From: Cytophagales bacterium
GTDB lineage: Bacteria > Bacteroidota > Bacteroidia > Cytophagales > ES-bin-26
Direction of reading: 5' to 3'
NCBI GenBank assembly: GCA_014379925.1
Contig: JACMKY010000493.1
Span: 1 to 38,144, forward strand
Length of the DNA stretch: 38,144 bases
The notes below the pieces were generated by a model. The model saw nothing but the letters and a program-made list of their open reading frames with translations, searched no databases and had not been told where the DNA came from. Position numbers and translations under genes: made by a program. Within the stretch, counting starts at the first letter, position 1; the number at the start of each line of letters is the position of its first letter. Shown piece by piece: positions 2,399-12,716 of this stretch.

Positions 2399-3568
2399 AT
2401 GGAAGCCACCACTACCGTTGCCGCCCCGGTTGGCGCCCTGCCGGGGGAGAAAACCAAGCCAACCCGCCTTGCCTCGCTCGACGCCCTGCGCGGGTTCGAT
2501 ATGTTCTGGATCATGGGCGGCGAAGGCATCGCCCACGCCCTGGCCAAAACCACCCGCTGGCCGGTGTTCAACTGGCTGTCCAAGGAACTGGAACACACGC
2601 CCTGGCACGGCTTCACTTTTTACGACATGATCTTCCCGCTGTTTTTGTTCATTGCCGGGGTATCCATGCCGTTTTCGCTGGGGGCGAGGTTGGCCAAAGC
2701 GGACGGCGGGGCCAGCAAGCGCGCCCTGTACGCTTCCATGATCCGGCGCACGCTGCTGCTCATTTTCCTGGGAATGGTCGTCAACGGCTTGTTCGAATGG
2801 AATGGCTACGAGAACACCCGCTTTGCCAGCGTACTGGGCCGCATTGGACTGGCCTGGTTTTTCGCGGGACTGATTTACCTCAATACGCACCTGCGCGGGC
2901 AAATCCTCTGGTTCGTCGGCTTGCTGGTGGGGTATTGGGCCGCGATGACGCTGGTGCCGGTGCCGGGCTTCGGGGCGGGCGTGCTCACCACCGAAGGCAG
3001 TCTGGCCGCCTACTTGGACCGCCTGCTGCTTCCCGGCAAACTCTACCTCGGCGTGCACGACCCCGAAGGCCTGTTTTCGGCCATTCCCGCCGTTGGAACG
3101 GCGTTGCTGGGGGTGTTCACGGGGCGATTTCTGCGCCACGACTCCCCGCGGTGGCCGATGGTGCGCAAGGGAATCGCCCTGGCGGTGGCCGGGACCGTGC
3201 TGTTGGGTCTGGGCAGCGCGTGGAACCTGGTTTTTCCCATCAACAAAAACCTGTGGACGAGTTCGTTCGTGGTATACGTAGGTGGCTGGAGTCTGATCTT
3301 CCTGGCGGTTTTCTACCTGATCATCGACGTGGCAGGCTACCGCCGGTGGGCCTTTCTGTTTACCCTCATCGGGCTTAACTCCATCACCATCTACCTGGCT
3401 TCGCACGGGATGATCAACTTCCTGTCGACGGCCAACTTCTTTTTCGGCGGGTTGATCAGGCAAGCCCCCGAACCCTGGCAAGCCGTGTGGACGGCCACGG
3501 CCATCGTGGTGGTGCAACTGGCCCTGCTGTACTTCCTCTACCGGAACAAGCTGTTTTTGCGGGTATGA
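2399..3568 (+). CDS. DUF5009/heparan-alpha-glucosaminide N-acetyltransferase-like membrane acyltransferase
   Basis: RLASLDALRGFDMFWIMGGEG N-terminal signature and multiple TM segments; start taken at MEATTTV. Confidence 0.85.
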   Translation: MEATTTVAAPVGALPGEKTKPTRLASLDALRGFDMFWIMGGEGIAHALAKTTRWPVFNWLSKELEHTPWHGFTFYDMIFPLFLFIAGVSMPFSLGARLAKADGGASKRALYASMIRRTLLLIFLGMVVNGLFEWNGYENTRFASVLGRIGLAWFFAGLIYLNTHLRGQILWFVGLLVGYWAAMTLVPVPGFGAGVLTTEGSLAAYLDRLLLPGKLYLGVHDPEGLFSAIPAVGTALLGVFTGRFLRHDSPRWPMVRKGIALAVAGTVLLGLGSAWNLVFPINKNLWTSSFVVYVGGWSLIFLAVFYLIIDVAGYRRWAFLFTLIGLNSITIYLASHGMINFLSTANFFFGGLIRQAPEPWQAVWTATAIVVVQLALLYFLYRNKLFLRV

Positions 3569-3664
3569 GCCGGAGTCAGCGGTTGAGCCGTACGGGTTGG
3601 GAGGGTGCGTTGAGTTGGCAAGAAGGATGGAGTGGTGGCGAGTTTACGGTGACTGTAAATAGCT

Positions 3665-3757: not shown

Positions 3758-5995
3758 CTAATTCTGGGAACCCGATCCCGGTGGTTGAAAATTTGGGTGA
3801 CCCAGTTGCCAAAGCAGGAACGAACAGGCGTCGGCGTAGGTCGCTAACCGCTGCTGCTTCGTGACACCGGGGCCGTGGCCGGTCTGGTAATCGACCCGCA
3901 ACATCACCGGCTTATTGCTCGAGGTGGCCGCCTGCAACCGGGCCGCCATCTTCGCCATCAGCCAGGGATCAACGCGCGGGTCGTTGATGCCCGTACCGAG
4001 CAGCACGGCCGGGTAGTTGGTGCGGTCTTTCACGTGGTGATAGGCGCTCATTTGGTGCAGAATCCGGAAACCTGCTTCCGTTTTCACGCTGCCGAATTCG
4101 GGGATGTTTGGTACGCCATTGGCCGTGGTTTCGAAGCGCAGCATGTCGGTCAGACCAACGGCAATGCCGACGGCGCGGAACAGGTCGGGGCGCTCGGTGA
4201 TGGCCCGGCCAATGAGAATGCCGCCCGCGCTGATGCCCAACCCGCCCAGGTGCGCCGGGGTGGTGTATTTTTCCCCAATCAGGTACTCGGCGCAGGCAAT
4301 GAAATCCTGCCAGGTATTCGGCTTGGTCGCTTGGTAGCCCGCCCGGTGCCACTCCTCCCCGTATTCACCCCCACCCCGCACGTGCGCTACGGCGTAGATG
4401 CCGCCCTGCTCCAGCCAGGCCGACAGCAGCGGCCCGTTGCCCGGCAACTGCGGAATGCCGTAGGCCCCGTAGCCATTGAGCCAGGTCGGGTGGGTGCCGT
4501 CTAATTTTATCCCTTTTTTGTGGATGATGGAGAGCGGAATGAGCGTACCGTCCGTGGCTTTGGCTTTCACTTCGCGAACCACCACGTTTTTCAATTCATC
4601 GGCTGGTCCCTCGGGTTGCAGACCAAGCGCCTCGGCTTGACGCGTAGTGGGATTCCAGGCAAACGGCCGGGGGGTTTTTACCCACGAGGTCAGCGAAAAC
4701 AACAGGCCCGGCACCCGCGCATCGGCCTGCACCTCGGCCAGCGTTCCGTCGAAAGGCAACGCAACGTACGACTCATCTTCACTTTTTTTGAACGGAATGC
4801 GCCGTAACTGACCCAATCCACCGTCCAACTGTTGAACGTACAAGGCATCCTCGGCCACGTGCAGGGCCCCTTCTCCCACGATGTAACTGCCACTCAGCAC
4901 GGCCTCGCCGGGGGGCACCACGACCGTAGCGGTCGCCAAATCCGGGTTTTTCAGGCTGGTACGAATGACCTGGTAGCGGGGGGCGTTTTTGTGCGTAATC
5001 AGGTACAGATCATCGCCGTGAACGGCCGCATCCGTCACCTCGTCGGCCATATCGCAAACCTTACGCCAGGGGATGACCGGCCGGCCAATGGTTGCCAGGG
5101 GAGCTACGTAACCCGCTTTTCCGCCCCCAACGCCCGTTTCGACGGAGGCCAGCACGTAGTCCGAGTTCGCAAACGTGTGCAGCCGGGGCAGCAGCGTCGG
5201 GCCTACCTCGATGGCCGGATCAACGCCGTATCCGAAAACAACCTGGTCCTCGTCGGCCGACGTACCGACGACGTGCCGGTACACGCGCTTTTTCTGCTGC
5301 AATTCGGTTTTGGGCGCGTCGGTCGGCAGTTGCGGCAGCCGGGTGTAGAAAAATGACCGGTTATCGGGCAGCCAGGCTACCCCGCCGTACCGCGCCCGGT
5401 CGATGGTTTCGCCCGTTTCGCGGCCCGTCGCTACGTCGTAGATGCGGATATAGGTGTTTTCCGAACCACCCGCCGCCAGCCCGACGGCGATCAGTTTGCC
5501 ATCCCAGGAGGGTTGAAAATAACTGATCGACACCGGTTGTCCGTGGGTTGGTTGCACAGTATCCGGATTAACCAGCCGCGTTTCCGGCCCCGTCAGCCCC
5601 GGCCGGAAGTACAGCCGGGCCAGGTTTTCGTTCGCGTTCGTTTTAAGGTACACGTACTGCTCACCGGGCAACCGCAGGACGCTGCTCACGCGGGCCGGCG
5701 ACGCGTTGCTCCATTCCGTGAGTCGCTCCAGCAAGATCCGCCGACCCGGAATCTGGTTCAGTACTGACTGGGTGTGGGCGGCCTGACCTTTCATCCAGTG
5801 AAGCAGTTCCGGATTTTTCATATCCTCCATCCAGCGGTACGGATCGGTGATTTTGGTCCCGAAGTAATCGTCCACCACCGGGCGGATGGGAGCTACGGGG
5901 GGCAGGACCGGGTTTGGTTGAGCGCGGCCTGCGTGAGTGAACAGTACCATGGCCACCAACGCAGTGGCCGTGGTAGGAAGAATATTGATGGGCAT
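3758..5995 (-). CDS. S9 family prolyl oligopeptidase, secreted
   Basis: Signal peptide MPINILPTTATALVAMVLFTHAGRA; YFGTKITDPYRWMED; C-terminal alpha/beta hydrolase with LGGLGISAGGILIGRAITERPDLF, ND.RVDPW and TGHGPG. Confidence 0.93.
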   Translation of the reverse strand: MPINILPTTATALVAMVLFTHAGRAQPNPVLPPVAPIRPVVDDYFGTKITDPYRWMEDMKNPELLHWMKGQAAHTQSVLNQIPGRRILLERLTEWSNASPARVSSVLRLPGEQYVYLKTNANENLARLYFRPGLTGPETRLVNPDTVQPTHGQPVSISYFQPSWDGKLIAVGLAAGGSENTYIRIYDVATGRETGETIDRARYGGVAWLPDNRSFFYTRLPQLPTDAPKTELQQKKRVYRHVVGTSADEDQVVFGYGVDPAIEVGPTLLPRLHTFANSDYVLASVETGVGGGKAGYVAPLATIGRPVIPWRKVCDMADEVTDAAVHGDDLYLITHKNAPRYQVIRTSLKNPDLATATVVVPPGEAVLSGSYIVGEGALHVAEDALYVQQLDGGLGQLRRIPFKKSEDESYVALPFDGTLAEVQADARVPGLLFSLTSWVKTPRPFAWNPTTRQAEALGLQPEGPADELKNVVVREVKAKATDGTLIPLSIIHKKGIKLDGTHPTWLNGYGAYGIPQLPGNGPLLSAWLEQGGIYAVAHVRGGGEYGEEWHRAGYQATKPNTWQDFIACAEYLIGEKYTTPAHLGGLGISAGGILIGRAITERPDLFRAVGIAVGLTDMLRFETTANGVPNIPEFGSVKTEAGFRILHQMSAYHHVKDRTNYPAVLLGTGINDPRVDPWLMAKMAARLQAATSSNKPVMLRVDYQTGHGPGVTKQQRLATYADACSFLLWQLGHPNFQPPGSGSQN

Positions 5996-6080: not shown

Positions 6081-6992
6081 TTAGTATATCAAAAAAGGCG
6101 CGTGTTCATCGTTGCAAGCCCCCAAATGAACCCTTTGGCAAGGATTGTATCCGTGGGCCCTGGATTGGTACGTTTTGTCGCTGTAGATGTACCAGTCCTC
6201 TACTCCCCTGGGGGCGATGTCAAAAGACCACCTTGGCACCCAGTGCCACGAGAGACACAAAAAGCCGTAACATTCCAATCGTTCCCCGCTAAAATGAATA
6301 CCGGTTTCAAAATCGGGAGCCATGGCGACCACTTTGGTCCAAGAATCGTTGGCCGTTTGGTAACAAGCTTGCGGCACATTCGTCCGGGACCGCCGGAACT
6401 TGTTTTCGCTAATAAAATTATCGATGAACCACTGTGCGCCGTAGTTGTCATTAAAGTAGTCCGCTGTACAGCCGGTGGCCTCCGTTCGCGCACTGCCTCC
6501 TTCGGTCCGTTTAGAGCCGGGTAGTTCAGCTGGGAATGGCAAGGGAGGGGTCGAATCCCGTTCCGCTTTGGCTTGAGTAAGGCGGGCCTGCGCTTGCGCC
6601 AAGCGGTTGATTGTCGCCTGGTCGGGCGCACTGGCAATGGCTCGGTAGATGGCAACCAGCGACTGCCCTTTTTCACTCATCAAGTCCAGTTTGCTGCTGA
6701 TTTGCAAAGAGGCACTGAGCCGGGCGTTCTGCCTACCAGGCTTGGGCGCTGTCCGCGAATGCCGAATGGCTACCTCGCCGGGCGCAAACTCGTGGAAGCC
6801 AACGAAGCTTCCGTCTTCGTAGCGGACCACGGCCAGCGTATCGCCCGTGATTACATTGGTGGAATCGTTGCCCTTGGCCACCCCGGGCGTTTCTTGTACG
6901 GGTCCGGAGAGCGGGTCTTTCGAGCAGGAAATCGCCGTCCCGGCGAACAACAAGGCAATAAAGTACTTGAAAACAGATTGTCTGTTTTTCAT
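6081..6992 (-). CDS. Hypothetical secreted lipoprotein with Cys/aromatic-rich C-terminal domain
   Basis: Start MKNRQSVFKYFIALLFAGTAISCSKDP (lipobox AISC); ATG at 6992. Confidence 0.75.
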   Translation of the reverse strand: MKNRQSVFKYFIALLFAGTAISCSKDPLSGPVQETPGVAKGNDSTNVITGDTLAVVRYEDGSFVGFHEFAPGEVAIRHSRTAPKPGRQNARLSASLQISSKLDLMSEKGQSLVAIYRAIASAPDQATINRLAQAQARLTQAKAERDSTPPLPFPAELPGSKRTEGGSARTEATGCTADYFNDNYGAQWFIDNFISENKFRRSRTNVPQACYQTANDSWTKVVAMAPDFETGIHFSGERLECYGFLCLSWHWVPRWSFDIAPRGVEDWYIYSDKTYQSRAHGYNPCQRVHLGACNDEHAPFLIY

Positions 6993-7038: not shown

Positions 7039-7083
7039 CAAAAGTAGAAGATCAGCAACCGGCTGGAAATAGTACTTTCGTAC
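7039..7083 (-). promoter_or_regulatory. Candidate promoter A: operator GTACGAAAGTACTA + TTT + N20 + TACTTTTG
   Basis: Minus-strand GTACGAAAGTACTATTTCCAGCCGGTTGCTGATCTTCTACTTTTG upstream of the 6992 start; -7 matches Bacteroidota TANNTTTG. Confidence 0.6.
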
Positions 7084-7522
7084 CCATTTTTGATCGACCA
7101 GCGCGTAGAAATTGGAACGGCAACGATGCCTGGCAGAGAGTGAAAAAGCGGCAGCTGAGCGGCCACCGGCACCGCTTCAAGCAGGCTGACGGAGGACTGC
7201 GCGGGAATAATTCGGGTCCGGTTGAAGTTTGCGGCCCCAAGGGGCATCCGGTACTCCCCTTCCGTGCATTCCCGGCACTCCATTGAGACGAGTAAGTTGA
7301 TCTCGAAGAGGCAGACGACGCTCCCTTACCCGGCGGTACGATGCGCTCAACAACCAGTAGCCGCGCGTCGTCCCCACGGTAAAGCACCTTTTTAAGCAGG
7401 CAAAGATCACCCACTCGCCGGAACGTTGGCTACGACGCAGATCAGTTGAGTAGTCCGAAACCCCGCGGTGTTTTTGCGGAAGGTTCCGCCTGGGATGAGG
7501 TTGGGATCGCTTTGGGATTTGG

Positions 7523-7918
7523 TTAGTCGATGCGGATAGCGATGTAATAGCCCGTCCCCTTCAGTACGTTGGCAGAGTGAATGACTCCTCTCGGAATCCA
7601 TATGCAGGCGTTGTTGCTTACCGTGTACACTTCATCCTCCAACTGAATTCGATAAACCAGTTCTTGTTCGGAAATGATGAGGTTGACTTCATCATAATCT
7701 TCGTGCACGTGCGGCTCCGTGTATTCCAAAGGGGGATATTGAACGGGCGATACTTGGTGAACCCCCAGGTGAAGGGGAAAACGCTTGGCGGTGTAACGCG
7801 TGATGGCTGCCGTATTGCGGTGAAAAGGCACCGCAGCGAGTGCTTCGGGTAGCATCTTGAAAATAAGCGATTCCTGGTCGTTTTCGGCGAAAAGTAAACG
7901 GTCGATTGAAGGTTGCAT
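7523..7918 (-). CDS. Cupin-domain protein
   Basis: EPHVHEDYDEVNLIISEQELVYRIQLEDEVYTVSNNACIWIPRGVIHSANV, cupin metal-binding pattern; start MQPSIDRLL. Confidence 0.75.
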   Translation of the reverse strand: MQPSIDRLLFAENDQESLIFKMLPEALAAVPFHRNTAAITRYTAKRFPLHLGVHQVSPVQYPPLEYTEPHVHEDYDEVNLIISEQELVYRIQLEDEVYTVSNNACIWIPRGVIHSANVLKGTGYYIAIRID

Positions 7919-7973
7919 AATTAAAGTGAGGGGGTGTTTGAGTCGATTTAAGAAAACGGATGACTGGTTTATT

Positions 7974-8498
7974 TCAATATTTAAGCCCGGAGAAGCCAGC
8001 ATAACCAGGCGCAAGCCCACTGGTTTGATGTGCATACGGCGTCATAATCCGCAGTAGCATCCAAAACGCCAGTCCCAGCCTCAAGAAACCGGGAATGACC
8101 CGGAGTGGTAGGTCAGTGCTAATGAGCCGTTCAATGGCTTCTTTAGAAAAGCCGGTCTCGTCCAACTGGGCTTGAATCGGGATCTGAATCACCGCCGTGG
8201 AAACCCAACCAATGAGCCCGAGAATGAACAGAGTCCATACCGACCACCGCGGAATGGCAGAGGGCCTGAACCAGAGCATCAGTACGTTAAAAACGGTGGC
8301 AAACAGCGCGGGCAGCACCATCGACGCAACAATGCGGGGACCCAATGCCTGGTGATACGCTTTGAATTCGGCCGCCCCGATCAGCAGCCAAGTTGGATAA
8401 TTGACCAGGCTCTCAACCGTGCCACCACCCGCACTGAAAAAGGTGAGGAGAAAAAAAACGGCGGTAACCCAACGGGCACGATGACTAATTGGTTTCAT
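7974..8498 (-). CDS. Small multi-pass membrane protein (DUF1772-like, tentative)
   Basis: Four hydrophobic segments; FFSAGGGTVESLVNYPTWLLIGAAEFKAYHQAL. Confidence 0.65.
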   Translation of the reverse strand: MKPISHRARWVTAVFFLLTFFSAGGGTVESLVNYPTWLLIGAAEFKAYHQALGPRIVASMVLPALFATVFNVLMLWFRPSAIPRWSVWTLFILGLIGWVSTAVIQIPIQAQLDETGFSKEAIERLISTDLPLRVIPGFLRLGLAFWMLLRIMTPYAHQTSGLAPGYAGFSGLKY

Positions 8499-8515
8499 AG
8501 AATTTACGGTGAAAG

Positions 8516-8944
8516 TTAAAACTCAACGCGCACCTGATCCATAATGCGCAGCACCGATTCCTGCCGGAACCGTTGCTTGTAGGCCCCGATGATTTCCCTC
8601 AGCTTCCGGCGAGACTCGTTTTCATCGGGGTGGGCCAGTTCCAGCAGAAAAGTGGACTCCCGAACGATGGTACCACTTGAATCCCGCCACTGCCCCTCGG
8701 CCCGCCAGACCGTCAGCCCGTCGGGGAAGCGGGGCGTCACCACCTCGGCCAGGAACTGCCGCCAGTTTTGCTCCGACACCTGCCCGCTATCCGGCAGCGA
8801 CCGGCCGAAATACAGCCGGTCCAGCGTCCAGGCCGACGCTTCGGCACGGGGGCGGCGGTGCGGCAGGCTGTCTTTTGCGCAGGAACTGAGTAGCAGAAAA
8901 GCAATCAGGAATGAATACAGGCGTGGCAATCGGATGGATTTCAT
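8516..8944 (-). CDS. DUF3574-like lipoprotein
   Basis: Lipobox LLLSSCAK; LDRLYFGRSLPDSGQVSEQNWRQFLAEVVTPRFPDGLTVWRAEGQW resembles DUF3574. Confidence 0.75.
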   Translation of the reverse strand: MKSIRLPRLYSFLIAFLLLSSCAKDSLPHRRPRAEASAWTLDRLYFGRSLPDSGQVSEQNWRQFLAEVVTPRFPDGLTVWRAEGQWRDSSGTIVRESTFLLELAHPDENESRRKLREIIGAYKQRFRQESVLRIMDQVRVEF

Positions 8945-8963
8945 GGGTCAATTAGTTCGGCAG

Positions 8964-9009
8964 CAAAGGTAGCGGGTGGGCCATCGCCGGATCAATAGTA
9001 CTTTACTAC
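8964..9009 (-). promoter_or_regulatory. Candidate promoter B: operator GTAGTAAAGTACTA + TTG + N21 + TACCTTTG
   Basis: Minus-strand sequence 20 bp upstream of the 8944 start; same layout as promoter A. Confidence 0.65.
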
Positions 9010-9044
9010 CAAACTCGGAGCAACTGGCGATGGCGGATAAATTA

Positions 9045-9089
9045 GTACAAAAGTACCATTGCCCGCCGGTGATCATTGCGAGAGTTTTG
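9045..9089 (+). promoter_or_regulatory. Candidate promoter C: operator GTACAAAAGTACCA + TTG + N20 + GAGTTTTG
   Basis: Plus-strand sequence upstream of the 9142 start; same layout as A and B. Confidence 0.6.
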
Positions 9090-9141: not shown

Positions 9142-9915
9142 ATGAAAGCAAACGCTTTATTTAACTGGACAATGGGCCTCGCCGGGATCGCGCTGGTCTC
9201 CGCCTGCAAAGACTGCAAAGACGAGCCAACGCCTCCCGTCCGTTTCACGCTGGTGAGCGGCAGTGGAGACCTGTCAGGGAAATTGACGGAGTTCCGGGCG
9301 CTACTGGGCGATCCGCTCAATCTCACGCCTGATCAGACGACCGGTCGGCGGGAAGTGAACTGGGACGGGGTGCCGGCCACGCTGACCAATCCGAACGTCT
9401 TCCCCGGCGACTTCTTCAACAGCACCGATCCGGCCGTGGCTGCGGGCCGCAAGCGCGGTCTGGTCAGCACGACGCCCGGCACCGACCTCCGGGTTAGCAA
9501 CATCGATTTTACCGACGTGGTAGCGTCGGAGGGCAATCAATTCAATGCCTTTAGTCCCCCCCGCACGTTCGCGCCGTTCGGCAGTACCATTACCGAAAAC
9601 ACTTTCCGGGTACCGGGAACGAATATTGAGGCAACGGTGAAGGGTTTCGGCGTGATTTTCTCCGACGTCGATAACGCGAATTCAACGACGGTGGAATTTT
9701 TTGAGGGCAACAAAAGTCTCGGCACGTTCAAGGCGCCGGTGCGCACCGATGATGCCGGGTTTTCGTTCGTGGGCGTGTTATTCCCCGACAACAAAGTCTC
9801 GAAAGTGGTCGTCAAGTCGGGCAATGCAGCGGTCAACAGTGGTTTAGCCGACAGCTGGCAGAACGATTTGGTCGTGATGGACGACTTCTTTTACGACGAG
9901 CCAAAAGTAAACTAA
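9142..9915 (+). CDS. Hypothetical secreted lipoprotein
   Basis: Lipobox-like ALVSACKDCKDE; soluble beta-rich sequence with FGVIFSDVDNANSTTVEFFEG. Confidence 0.75.
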   Translation: MKANALFNWTMGLAGIALVSACKDCKDEPTPPVRFTLVSGSGDLSGKLTEFRALLGDPLNLTPDQTTGRREVNWDGVPATLTNPNVFPGDFFNSTDPAVAAGRKRGLVSTTPGTDLRVSNIDFTDVVASEGNQFNAFSPPRTFAPFGSTITENTFRVPGTNIEATVKGFGVIFSDVDNANSTTVEFFEGNKSLGTFKAPVRTDDAGFSFVGVLFPDNKVSKVVVKSGNAAVNSGLADSWQNDLVVMDDFFYDEPKVN

Positions 9916-10001: not shown

Positions 10002-10607
10002 ATGAATAGACAACGAGATATTGCCCGACTGGGCTTGGCCTGCGCTACCGGCGGGGTGTTGTTTGCCGTCAGCCTCTGGATGATGGTGTCCATTCAGGAC
10101 TTGCCGCCCGCCATCCGGCTGTTTTTTGAAAACCGCGACTACCTCCTGCGAACGCTGTTTTTTTTGTCGCAGATCGGATTTATGAGCGGGCTCTACGCCC
10201 TGCTTATTACGGACGCTACTGGCCGGTCAGGACTCCGAAAAAGTATTTTGCTCATCCCATTTATGGGCCAGCTCGCTTACCTGACCACTTCCTTGCTACC
10301 CAATCAGGCCGTGATGACGCTGTTGCCCATACCCCTGCCGCAGTTAGGCGCGATTCTGAACGCCATCGGGATGGTGCTGGTCGGTATTGCCGTGTTACGG
10401 AACGACGCGTGGCACGGTTGGTCCCGCCTCTTGCCCCTGCTAACGGGCCTGTATCCGTTCTTAGTGATGTTTCCGGTGCTGGTCATCACCGGCCATCCTC
10501 CCCGGGCGCTCATTGGTCTGTGGGGGCTGGTTTGGATGGCGCTCGGCTATGCGATCTACAGTATTGCTGCCTACGCCAAATCCATTCGCGGGAAAATAAC
10601 GGTTTAA
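10002..10607 (+). CDS. Multi-pass membrane protein, copy 1 of a tandem duplicate
   Basis: 201 aa, strongly hydrophobic; highly similar along its full length to 10842-11456. Confidence 0.75.
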   Translation: MNRQRDIARLGLACATGGVLFAVSLWMMVSIQDLPPAIRLFFENRDYLLRTLFFLSQIGFMSGLYALLITDATGRSGLRKSILLIPFMGQLAYLTTSLLPNQAVMTLLPIPLPQLGAILNAIGMVLVGIAVLRNDAWHGWSRLLPLLTGLYPFLVMFPVLVITGHPPRALIGLWGLVWMALGYAIYSIAAYAKSIRGKITV

Positions 10608-10841: not shown

Positions 10842-11456
10842 GTGATGCGTAAACGAAGAATCATTGCCCGGCTGGAGTTGGCCTGCGCCATCGGCGGGGT
10901 ATCTTTTGCCGTTGTCCTCTGGACAATGGTATCCGTTCAGGACTTGCCGCCCGCCATCCGGCAGTTGTTTGAAACCCGTGGCTACATCCTGCGAACGCTG
11001 TTTTTTTTGTCGCAGATCGGGTTTATGAGCGGGCTCTACGCGCTGCTAATTGCTGATGCTACCGACCGGTCAAAGCTCAGAAAAAGTGTTTTGTCCATTC
11101 CATTTTTAGGTCAGCTCGGTTACCTAACTACTTCCTTGCTGCCCAATCAGACCGTGACAACGTTGCTGCCCCTACCACTGACGCAATTGGGCGCTATTTT
11201 AAACACCGTCGGGATGGTGCTGGTCGGTATCGCCGTGCTACGGGGCGACGCGTGGCACGGTTGGCCCCGCCCGTTGCCCCTGCTAACGGGTCTGTGCCCG
11301 TTCTTGATTATGTTTCCGGTATTGGCCATAACCAGTTATCCTCCCCGGGCGCTCATTGATCTGTGGGGGCTGGTTTGGATGGCGCTCGGCTATGCGATCT
11401 ACAGTAGTGCTGCCTACGCCAAATCCATTCGCAGAGAAATAAAAATATCTGTTTAA
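10842..11456 (+). CDS. Multi-pass membrane protein, copy 2 of a tandem duplicate
   Basis: 204 aa; shares LRTLFFLSQIGFMSGLYALLI, YLTTSLLPNQ, GMVLVGIAVLR, PPRALI.LWGLVWMALGYAIYS with copy 1. Confidence 0.75.
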   Translation: MMRKRRIIARLELACAIGGVSFAVVLWTMVSVQDLPPAIRQLFETRGYILRTLFFLSQIGFMSGLYALLIADATDRSKLRKSVLSIPFLGQLGYLTTSLLPNQTVTTLLPLPLTQLGAILNTVGMVLVGIAVLRGDAWHGWPRPLPLLTGLCPFLIMFPVLAITSYPPRALIDLWGLVWMALGYAIYSSAAYAKSIRREIKISV

Positions 11457-11509: not shown

Positions 11510-11881
11510 TTGTTTCTGACAAAAAGGGCTGACCACTTCAAGACCGGCATTGCCGTAGCCCCCGTGACCAGCTGGCGGTTTTACGATTCCATCTACACGG
11601 AGCGGTACCTGAAAACGTCGCAGGAAAATCCCGGCGGCTACGACGACAACTCCCCCGTTACCCACGCCGACAAACTGAAAGGCAACTACTTACTTATTCA
11701 CGGCACCGGCGACGACAACGTGCATTTCCAGAATGCCGTGGTGATGGAGAACGCGTTGATCAAAGCCAACAAACAGTTCCGCTCCTTTTATTACCCCAAC
11801 CGCAACCACGGCATTTCCGGCGGCAACACCCGGCTGCACCTGTACATGATGATGACCGAGTTTCTAGAAAAGAATTTATAG
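11510..11881 (+). pseudogene. 5'-truncated S9B dipeptidyl-peptidase IV fragment (C-terminal region only)
   Basis: FKTGIAVAPVTSWRFYDSIYTERYLKTSQENPGGYDDNSPVTHADKLKGNYLLIHGTGDDNVHFQNAVVMENAL...NRNHGISGGNTRLHLY is the C-terminal part of the DPP-IV hydrolase domain (Asp and His of the triad present, Ser region absent); in-frame stop at 11495. Confidence 0.8.
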
Positions 11882-11987: not shown

Positions 11988-12716
11988 TTATCTATTTTCG
12001 TTTAAATATTTAAAAGATTCTAACAATTCTTTATCTTCTGAAAAGCTTCTGATGATTTGTTCAAATTTTTCAGTCTCAATCTCCCAGTTATTAACTTTTG
12101 ATATCTCAATCGCACTTATTCTTTTTCCTTGGCGAAGGTATGCTTGAGTTTTGTGGTGACCATCAATAATAAAATTGACACTTCCATCTTTTATTTTTAG
12201 AATAATAGGTAAAGGGCTTTTTCCCTGCTTTATTAAGTTTTCATAAAAATAGACTCTATCCTTATTCAAATATTGCTGTGTTCCATACAACGGATAAGGA
12301 TCACTGCCGGAATAAAAACTGTGTGACTTATAGTCAAGTCTTAATTCTTTATCATCTACGTAAGAAACATCCTGTTTTTTGCAGGCTATTAGCATAAAAT
12401 GTGTATAGTCATATTCGATTACTTCAAGTTCATACGTAGCGTTTGATAGCATTTTCATGAACGGTTTTAGTATTTCTACCAATCCTTTCTCCTCCAGATT
12501 TCCTTGCTTAAGCAAATCAGATAATTCAAAATATTTCTCCAAATAAAATGATTGCTTATCGGGAACATCTCCGACAAAGAAATTCATAAGGGTATTCCAA
12601 TCCATTTCCCAAGCAACTACTCTTGGTTGTTTATTATGAAAAAAAATACCTGAATCAGTATTGCCTTTTATGTCAATGAGCCCCTTTCCTTCAGATTGTA
12701 TATGTGTCTCTTTCAT
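11988..12716 (-). CDS. AT-rich orphan gene; C-terminal ParB/Srx-like fold suspected
   Basis: 242 aa intact ORF; GKSPLPIILKIKDGSVNFIIDGHHKTQAYLRQGKRISAIEI resembles the ParB-like DGHHR motif; composition clearly more AT-rich than neighbours. Confidence 0.65.
   Translation of the reverse strand: MKETHIQSEGKGLIDIKGNTDSGIFFHNKQPRVVAWEMDWNTLMNFFVGDVPDKQSFYLEKYFELSDLLKQGNLEEKGLVEILKPFMKMLSNATYELEVIEYDYTHFMLIACKKQDVSYVDDKELRLDYKSHSFYSGSDPYPLYGTQQYLNKDRVYFYENLIKQGKSPLPIILKIKDGSVNFIIDGHHKTQAYLRQGKRISAIEISKVNNWEIETEKFEQIIRSFSEDKELLESFKYLNENR

Follow-up and report, generated by a model that had tools for sequence, protein, structure and literature searches.

Three promoters in the window, by which we mean the whole stretch of 38,144 nucleotides analysed here, carry one operator fused to a -33 element, raising the question of which protein reads this operator and how far its regulon extends. 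An earlier note on this DNA had taken the three promoters for a candidate local regulon of lipoprotein genes, and had guessed at a winged-helix (HxlR/MarR-like) regulator. The 16-bp dyad, the -33 element and the -7 box were seen at all three sites with the letters noted earlier (Table 1), and the fused operator, present as written, is best described as a 6-4-6 dyad, TRGTAC-N4-GTACYA (16 bp), directly joined to TTK-N20(21)-KANNTTTG. The -7 box is by sequence a Bacteroidota sigma-A type TANNTTTG box at -12 to -5, the consensus and placement being those of PMC9723704. A further string that had been noted as common to A and B, CAGCAAARGTAG, is present in both, but simply reads as the -7 box on the opposite strand with a few extra bases, and the other sites do not share it.

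Table 1. Positions of the sites, their predicted target genes and the candidate regulators. Positions are those of the window unless a contig or locus is named.
Feature	Position	Strand	Remarks
Site A, whole	7085..7039	-	spacer N20
Site A dyad, 16 bp, GGGTACGAAAGTACTA	7070..7085	-	
Site A -33 element TTT	7067..7069	-	
Site A -7 element TACTTTTG	7039..7046	-	N20 from -33
Site B, whole	9011..8964	-	spacer N21
Site B dyad, 16 bp, TGGTAGTAAAGTACTA	8996..9011	-	
Site B -33 element TTG	8993..8995	-	
Site B -7 element TACCTTTG	8964..8971	-	N21 from -33
Site C, whole	9043..9089	+	spacer N20
Site C dyad, 16 bp, TAGTACAAAAGTACCA	9043..9058	+	
Site C -33 element TTG	9059..9061	+	
Site C -7 element GAGTTTTG	9082..9089	+	N20 from -33
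Lipoprotein gene, predicted target of site A	6081..6992	-	G346 orthologue 60%
Prolyl oligopeptidase gene	3758..5995	-	probably in a transcription unit with 6081-6992
DUF3574 lipoprotein gene, predicted target of site B	8516..8944	-	Pfam E 2.5e-38
Membrane protein gene, DUF1772-like by resemblance	7974..8498	-	no Pfam match
Lipoprotein gene, predicted target of site C	9142..9915	+	
Nine N20 sites (0-1 mismatch)	window A and C, C240, C321, C364, C398, C462 (two), C682		
Site target, astacin lipoprotein	C240		
Site target, DUF1772-like/anthrone-oxygenase-like membrane protein	C321		
Site targets, cupins	C364 and C462		
Second C462 site target, small secreted protein	C462		in front of marR
Site target, secreted protein	C682		
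Site target, unassigned protein	C398		
marR	C462, 1755-2219		beside pasR and two sites; 81% to G004
TGTACGTACA-type palindromes	C462 (L210), 2296-2307 and 2425-2436		
pasR (PAS-GerE/PAS-LuxR gene)	C462, about 2871-3584		beside two sites

With up to 2 mismatches allowed, the operator alone occurs 3 times in the window versus 0.63 expected, a count reached in 2 of 100 shuffles, and the composite of dyad, TTK, N20/21 and KANNTTTG likewise occurs 3 times, with none in 30 dinucleotide shuffles. The window's genome (G000) is a 5.4-Mb draft of 717 contigs, in which exact matches to the bare dyad number 4 (reversed control, 0). A genome-wide scan, which the note had proposed as a check, was run with the N20 composite, up to 3 mismatches being allowed; it returned 9 sites at 0-1 mismatch, 0 at 2 and 1 at 3, the last probably a chance match, against 0 sites for the reversed control in the same 5.4 Mb. 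Site B of the window, with its N21 spacer, is the tenth, and the promoter-proximal half of the dyad (GTACYA plus TT) is the better conserved half among these ten. Each is followed by a plausible gene, whose start codon comes about 20-190 bases further downstream. As seven of the ten lie outside the window, spread over six other contigs, the term local does not hold; the three window promoters belong, by sequence, to a dispersed regulon of at least ten predicted promoters in G000.

The products of all three genes faced by the window sites carry a lipobox, as seen by eye, and to this extent the lipoprotein claim stood; among the remaining predicted targets are cupins as well as membrane proteins of DUF1772/anthrone-oxygenase-like type, and the predicted regulon is thus neither local nor lipoprotein-only. 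No Pfam family matched the product of the gene facing site A, whose orthologue in G346 likewise adjoins a prolyl oligopeptidase gene; from this gene order, the same in both genomes, the two probably form one unit. The DUF3574 lipoprotein has orthologues in G346 (66%) and G004 (52%), and the 18-base gap to the membrane protein gene that follows points to a probable second unit. Orthologues of the lipoprotein facing site C were found in G346 (70%) and G385 (62%), both with a site. Clustered neighbours of the targets include a flavin monooxygenase, a UDP-glycosyltransferase and hydrolases, and targets and neighbours together suggest that the regulon responds to a small molecule or takes part in its processing. 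Further along the window, 10002-10607 and 10842-11456 are paralogues in tandem, 79% identical, that belong to an unassigned family of membrane proteins; the homologue in G004 has its own site. Beyond them lie a truncated gene fragment encoding the C-terminal part of a Peptidase_S9 protein, the N-terminal part being absent (11510-11881), and a gene of 242 aa (11988-12716) with no Pfam family and visibly AT-rich DNA, which looks like a recent arrival.

We then turned to relatives in the Cytophagales. The exact dyad alone was too rare and noisy across 59 relatives, so that the composite pattern was required; with at most one mismatch, the N20 composite occurs in only ten of 391 genomes of the order, three copies being in G004. 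A relaxed N20 pattern gave 7 copies in G004, 2 in G346 and 1 in G227, and a weight matrix added N21 copies in each of these three. In G004, sites precede orthologues of the C321 (62%), C682 (47%) and C240 (45%) targets, while in G346 and G385 the gene order is site, 9142 orthologue, marR, pasR, an arrangement that ties site C to the regulator locus. The motif lies upstream of genes in the genome and of orthologues in relatives (G004, G346, G385). Lone sites were also seen in genomes without a close PasR homologue (G316, G259, G008, G349 and G019), some of them within coding genes; for G349, G019 and G259 the single matches, which fall within coding genes, are taken as chance.

The geometry of these promoters is sharply fixed. 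When inverted 6-mers before -33/-7 boxes were collected from 20 loci (at most one mismatch between arms, arm gaps 0-8, spacers 12-28), gap 4 with N20 was found 13 times, gap 4 with N21 5 times and any other combination once, many of the loci having been picked by motif, so that the counts speak for sharpness and do not give an unbiased rate; loci L267, L310, L311 and L312 were picked independently of the half-site they show. The gap-4 class was found 0 times in 402,745 bases of other Bacteroidota loci. Taking the -7 box as -12 to -5 (PMC9723704), the dyad extends from about -51 to about -36, with its centre at about -43.5. Near distant homologues of the candidate regulator PasR, described below, the half-site differs (GTGC, GTCC, GCCC) and the geometry is constant. 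Recognition-helix residues and half-sites show no one-to-one mapping: the G385 L310 protein retains the serine of the GTAC group, yet adjoins a GTCC dyad. Genome-wide recurrence, fixed geometry and sites that covary together argue strongly for the note's proposal of one transcription factor acting just upstream of RNA polymerase. A separate case is seen in G008 (L274, 8822-9000), where TAGTTA-type 6-4-6 dyads, placed relative to -33/-7 as in the regulon promoters, precede a receiver-GerE (NarL-type) response-regulator gene and a divergent gene.

There is no regulator gene in the window, as the note had stated; the candidate, pasR, lies on contig C462. Its product in G000 has a GerE domain (PF00196, E 1.5e-16) and an N-terminal PAS domain above cut-off (PAS_3 E 2.2e-9, PAS_9 E 1.1e-7), the latter scoring below cut-off or going undetected in the homologues of G317 and G385. 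Pfam shows PAS and GerE only, with no autoinducer-binding domain and no match to Response_reg, the receiver domain. In site neighbourhoods of G346 and G004, genes for a MarR protein and a PAS-GerE protein are adjacent. PasR-like proteins (E<1e-35) are encoded by 7 of 382 genomes, and the strongest four (G000, G004, G346, G227) all have sites; the remaining three are G317, with another site type, G116, with one good site, and G071, in which the homologue is weak and no site was seen. The association between PasR and sites has a Fisher's exact probability of 5e-6 over the shared genomes, and of 1e-4 without G000. G385, which has two sites and four PasR homologues, was outside the 382-genome sample, its sites being already known before the homologue search.

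Other regulator families were also considered. HxlR was rejected, with a strong dyad at 0 of 8 HxlR loci of the genome, as was PadR: the DNA upstream of about 100 PadR homologues is without the dyad, minus-strand entries among L073-L101 being uninformative (the stretch was not turned round), and the one site near the best PadR gene, on C398, faces another gene. Pairs of a PadR-like regulator and a permease gene do occur near regulon genes, at L311 2524-5531 (G385) and L273 13489-16001 (G004).

The alternative nearest to the winged-helix guess is that MarR itself binds the dyads, as repressor or activator. The marR gene adjoins sites in G000, G346, G227, G004 and G385 L310, is 74-81% conserved among them, and has a weak site in its own promoter in G004. 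However, G213 (75%) and G223 (68%) have kept MarR, with neither PasR nor sites found, and G317, which has two pasR genes and no close MarR (best about 1e-33), has five TAGTGC-N4-GCACTA promoters within a 10-kb stretch around them, four N20 and one N21; no N20 copy was found in the six other genomes of its genus that were searched. In G385, L311 and L312 each have pasR, CTC- or CCC-type dyads and no MarR at the locus, although G385 holds a close MarR at L310, so that these sites alone do not exclude MarR and weigh less than those of G317. In addition, marR is accompanied by a different palindrome, TGTACGTACA, even in G213 without pasR, and a strictly fixed position before -33 better suits an activator than a repressor. 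We therefore regard direct binding by MarR as unlikely. Because MarR can be present without sites (G213, G223) and sites without a close MarR (G317), PasR is favoured over it; PasR tracks the sites, and the sensor working the switch is most likely this PAS-GerE protein rather than a winged-helix one.

PasR might instead bind the dyads as a repressor, blocking sigma region 4 at -33, as could be expected from a dyad that directly abuts the -33 element and from -33 and -7 boxes that are fairly good. All copies are nevertheless placed alike, though a repressor needs no fixed spacing, and this is the position from which the PAS-LuxR proteins of Streptomyces, like class II LuxR proteins, activate; we consider repression improbable. 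Finally, a layout common to several copies could reflect one dispersed repeat, or a promoter segment that was duplicated, with no regulatory role. The copies have only the dyad, TTK and the -7 box in common, the N20 spacers and flanks being unrelated, and the layout is seen again in other genomes with different half-sites, so that this reading is already contradicted and has next to no likelihood.

Palindromes of the TGTACGTACA type are found near marR and pasR, usually paired about 120-130 bases apart (also at L202, L204, L244, L245, L310 and L312). Two of them lie between marR and pasR in G000, G346, G227 and G385 (slightly changed), two lie upstream of marR in G004, and a single one precedes pasR at L312 of G385; in G213, where pasR is absent, similar palindromes follow marR. 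On the simplest reading these are probably MarR operators gating pasR.

Taken together, these data lead us to propose, with good confidence, that a PasR homodimer activates at least ten promoters through the 16-bp dyad, that its PAS domain senses a signal, and that MarR probably gates pasR. The homodimer would bind at about -51 to -36, directly upstream of -33, and would activate through contact with sigma region 4 or RNA polymerase, in the manner of class II LuxR-type activators; activation is preferred to repression because the placement relative to -33 is strictly fixed. The neighbouring MarR would probably repress pasR through the palindrome pair, and the PasR site upstream of marR in several genomes would then make a gated feedback circuit. 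Such a dyad-promoter layout may be common to GerE proteins of the Cytophagales in general. We further suggest, tentatively and as a reading with a substantial though not prevailing chance of being right, that PAS-GerE activators have diversified in this order, with paralogues in one genome (four in G385) owning different half-sites (e.g. GTCC, GCCC) at fixed geometry, forming separate, insulated regulons with MarR gating the activator. If true, the recognition of Bacteroidota promoters by GerE proteins would become readable as a code. Sequence alone yielded the operator, the geometry of the promoters, the set of targets and a single candidate activator; half-sites that change at fixed geometry represent a natural experiment on the choice of DNA by GerE proteins and on the action of activators at the -33/-7 promoters of Bacteroidota, an unusual promoter type.

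Activation by PAS-LuxR proteins is a known kind of control, and we found no description of a PAS-LuxR regulon in Cytophagales in the open-licence literature searched, nor of its occurrence there with varied half-sites at -33/-7 promoters. Like the LuxR quorum-sensing activators, PasR has a GerE helix-turn-helix and a dyad centred beside the -35 region, the lux box being centred at -42.5 (PMC4471428); unlike PasR, which has a PAS domain instead, those activators have an autoinducer-binding domain and a 20-bp box. ComA/NarL-type response regulators share the GerE helix-turn-helix and inverted hexamers 4 bases apart, a preference that was measured for the GerE-type ComA (PMC4797271), but they carry a receiver domain and act in a phosphorelay where PasR has PAS, and ComA uses an extra direct repeat. 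The nearest known system is PimM of Streptomyces, which with PteF belongs to the PAS-LuxR activators with operator CTVGGGAWWTCCCBAG (PMC9774167, PMC6448028, PMC5930380), their operators being 16-bp dyads in the -35 region (PMC9774167). PimM and PteF, like PasR, combine an N-terminal PAS with a C-terminal GerE domain, a 16-bp dyad in the -35 region (here by sequence position) and several scattered promoters under one regulator (here predicted), with a second regulator standing above (here probably MarR). The half-sites in Cytophagales are, however, TRGTAC, TAGTGC, TAGTCC or TAGCCC and not CTVGGG, and since the Streptomyces consensus is not matched we do not file PasR as a PimM orthologue. Furthermore, the promoters are of the Bacteroidota -33/-7 type, the targets are not polyketide clusters, and the upstream regulator would be of MarR type where that of PimM and PteF is a SARP-LAL protein.
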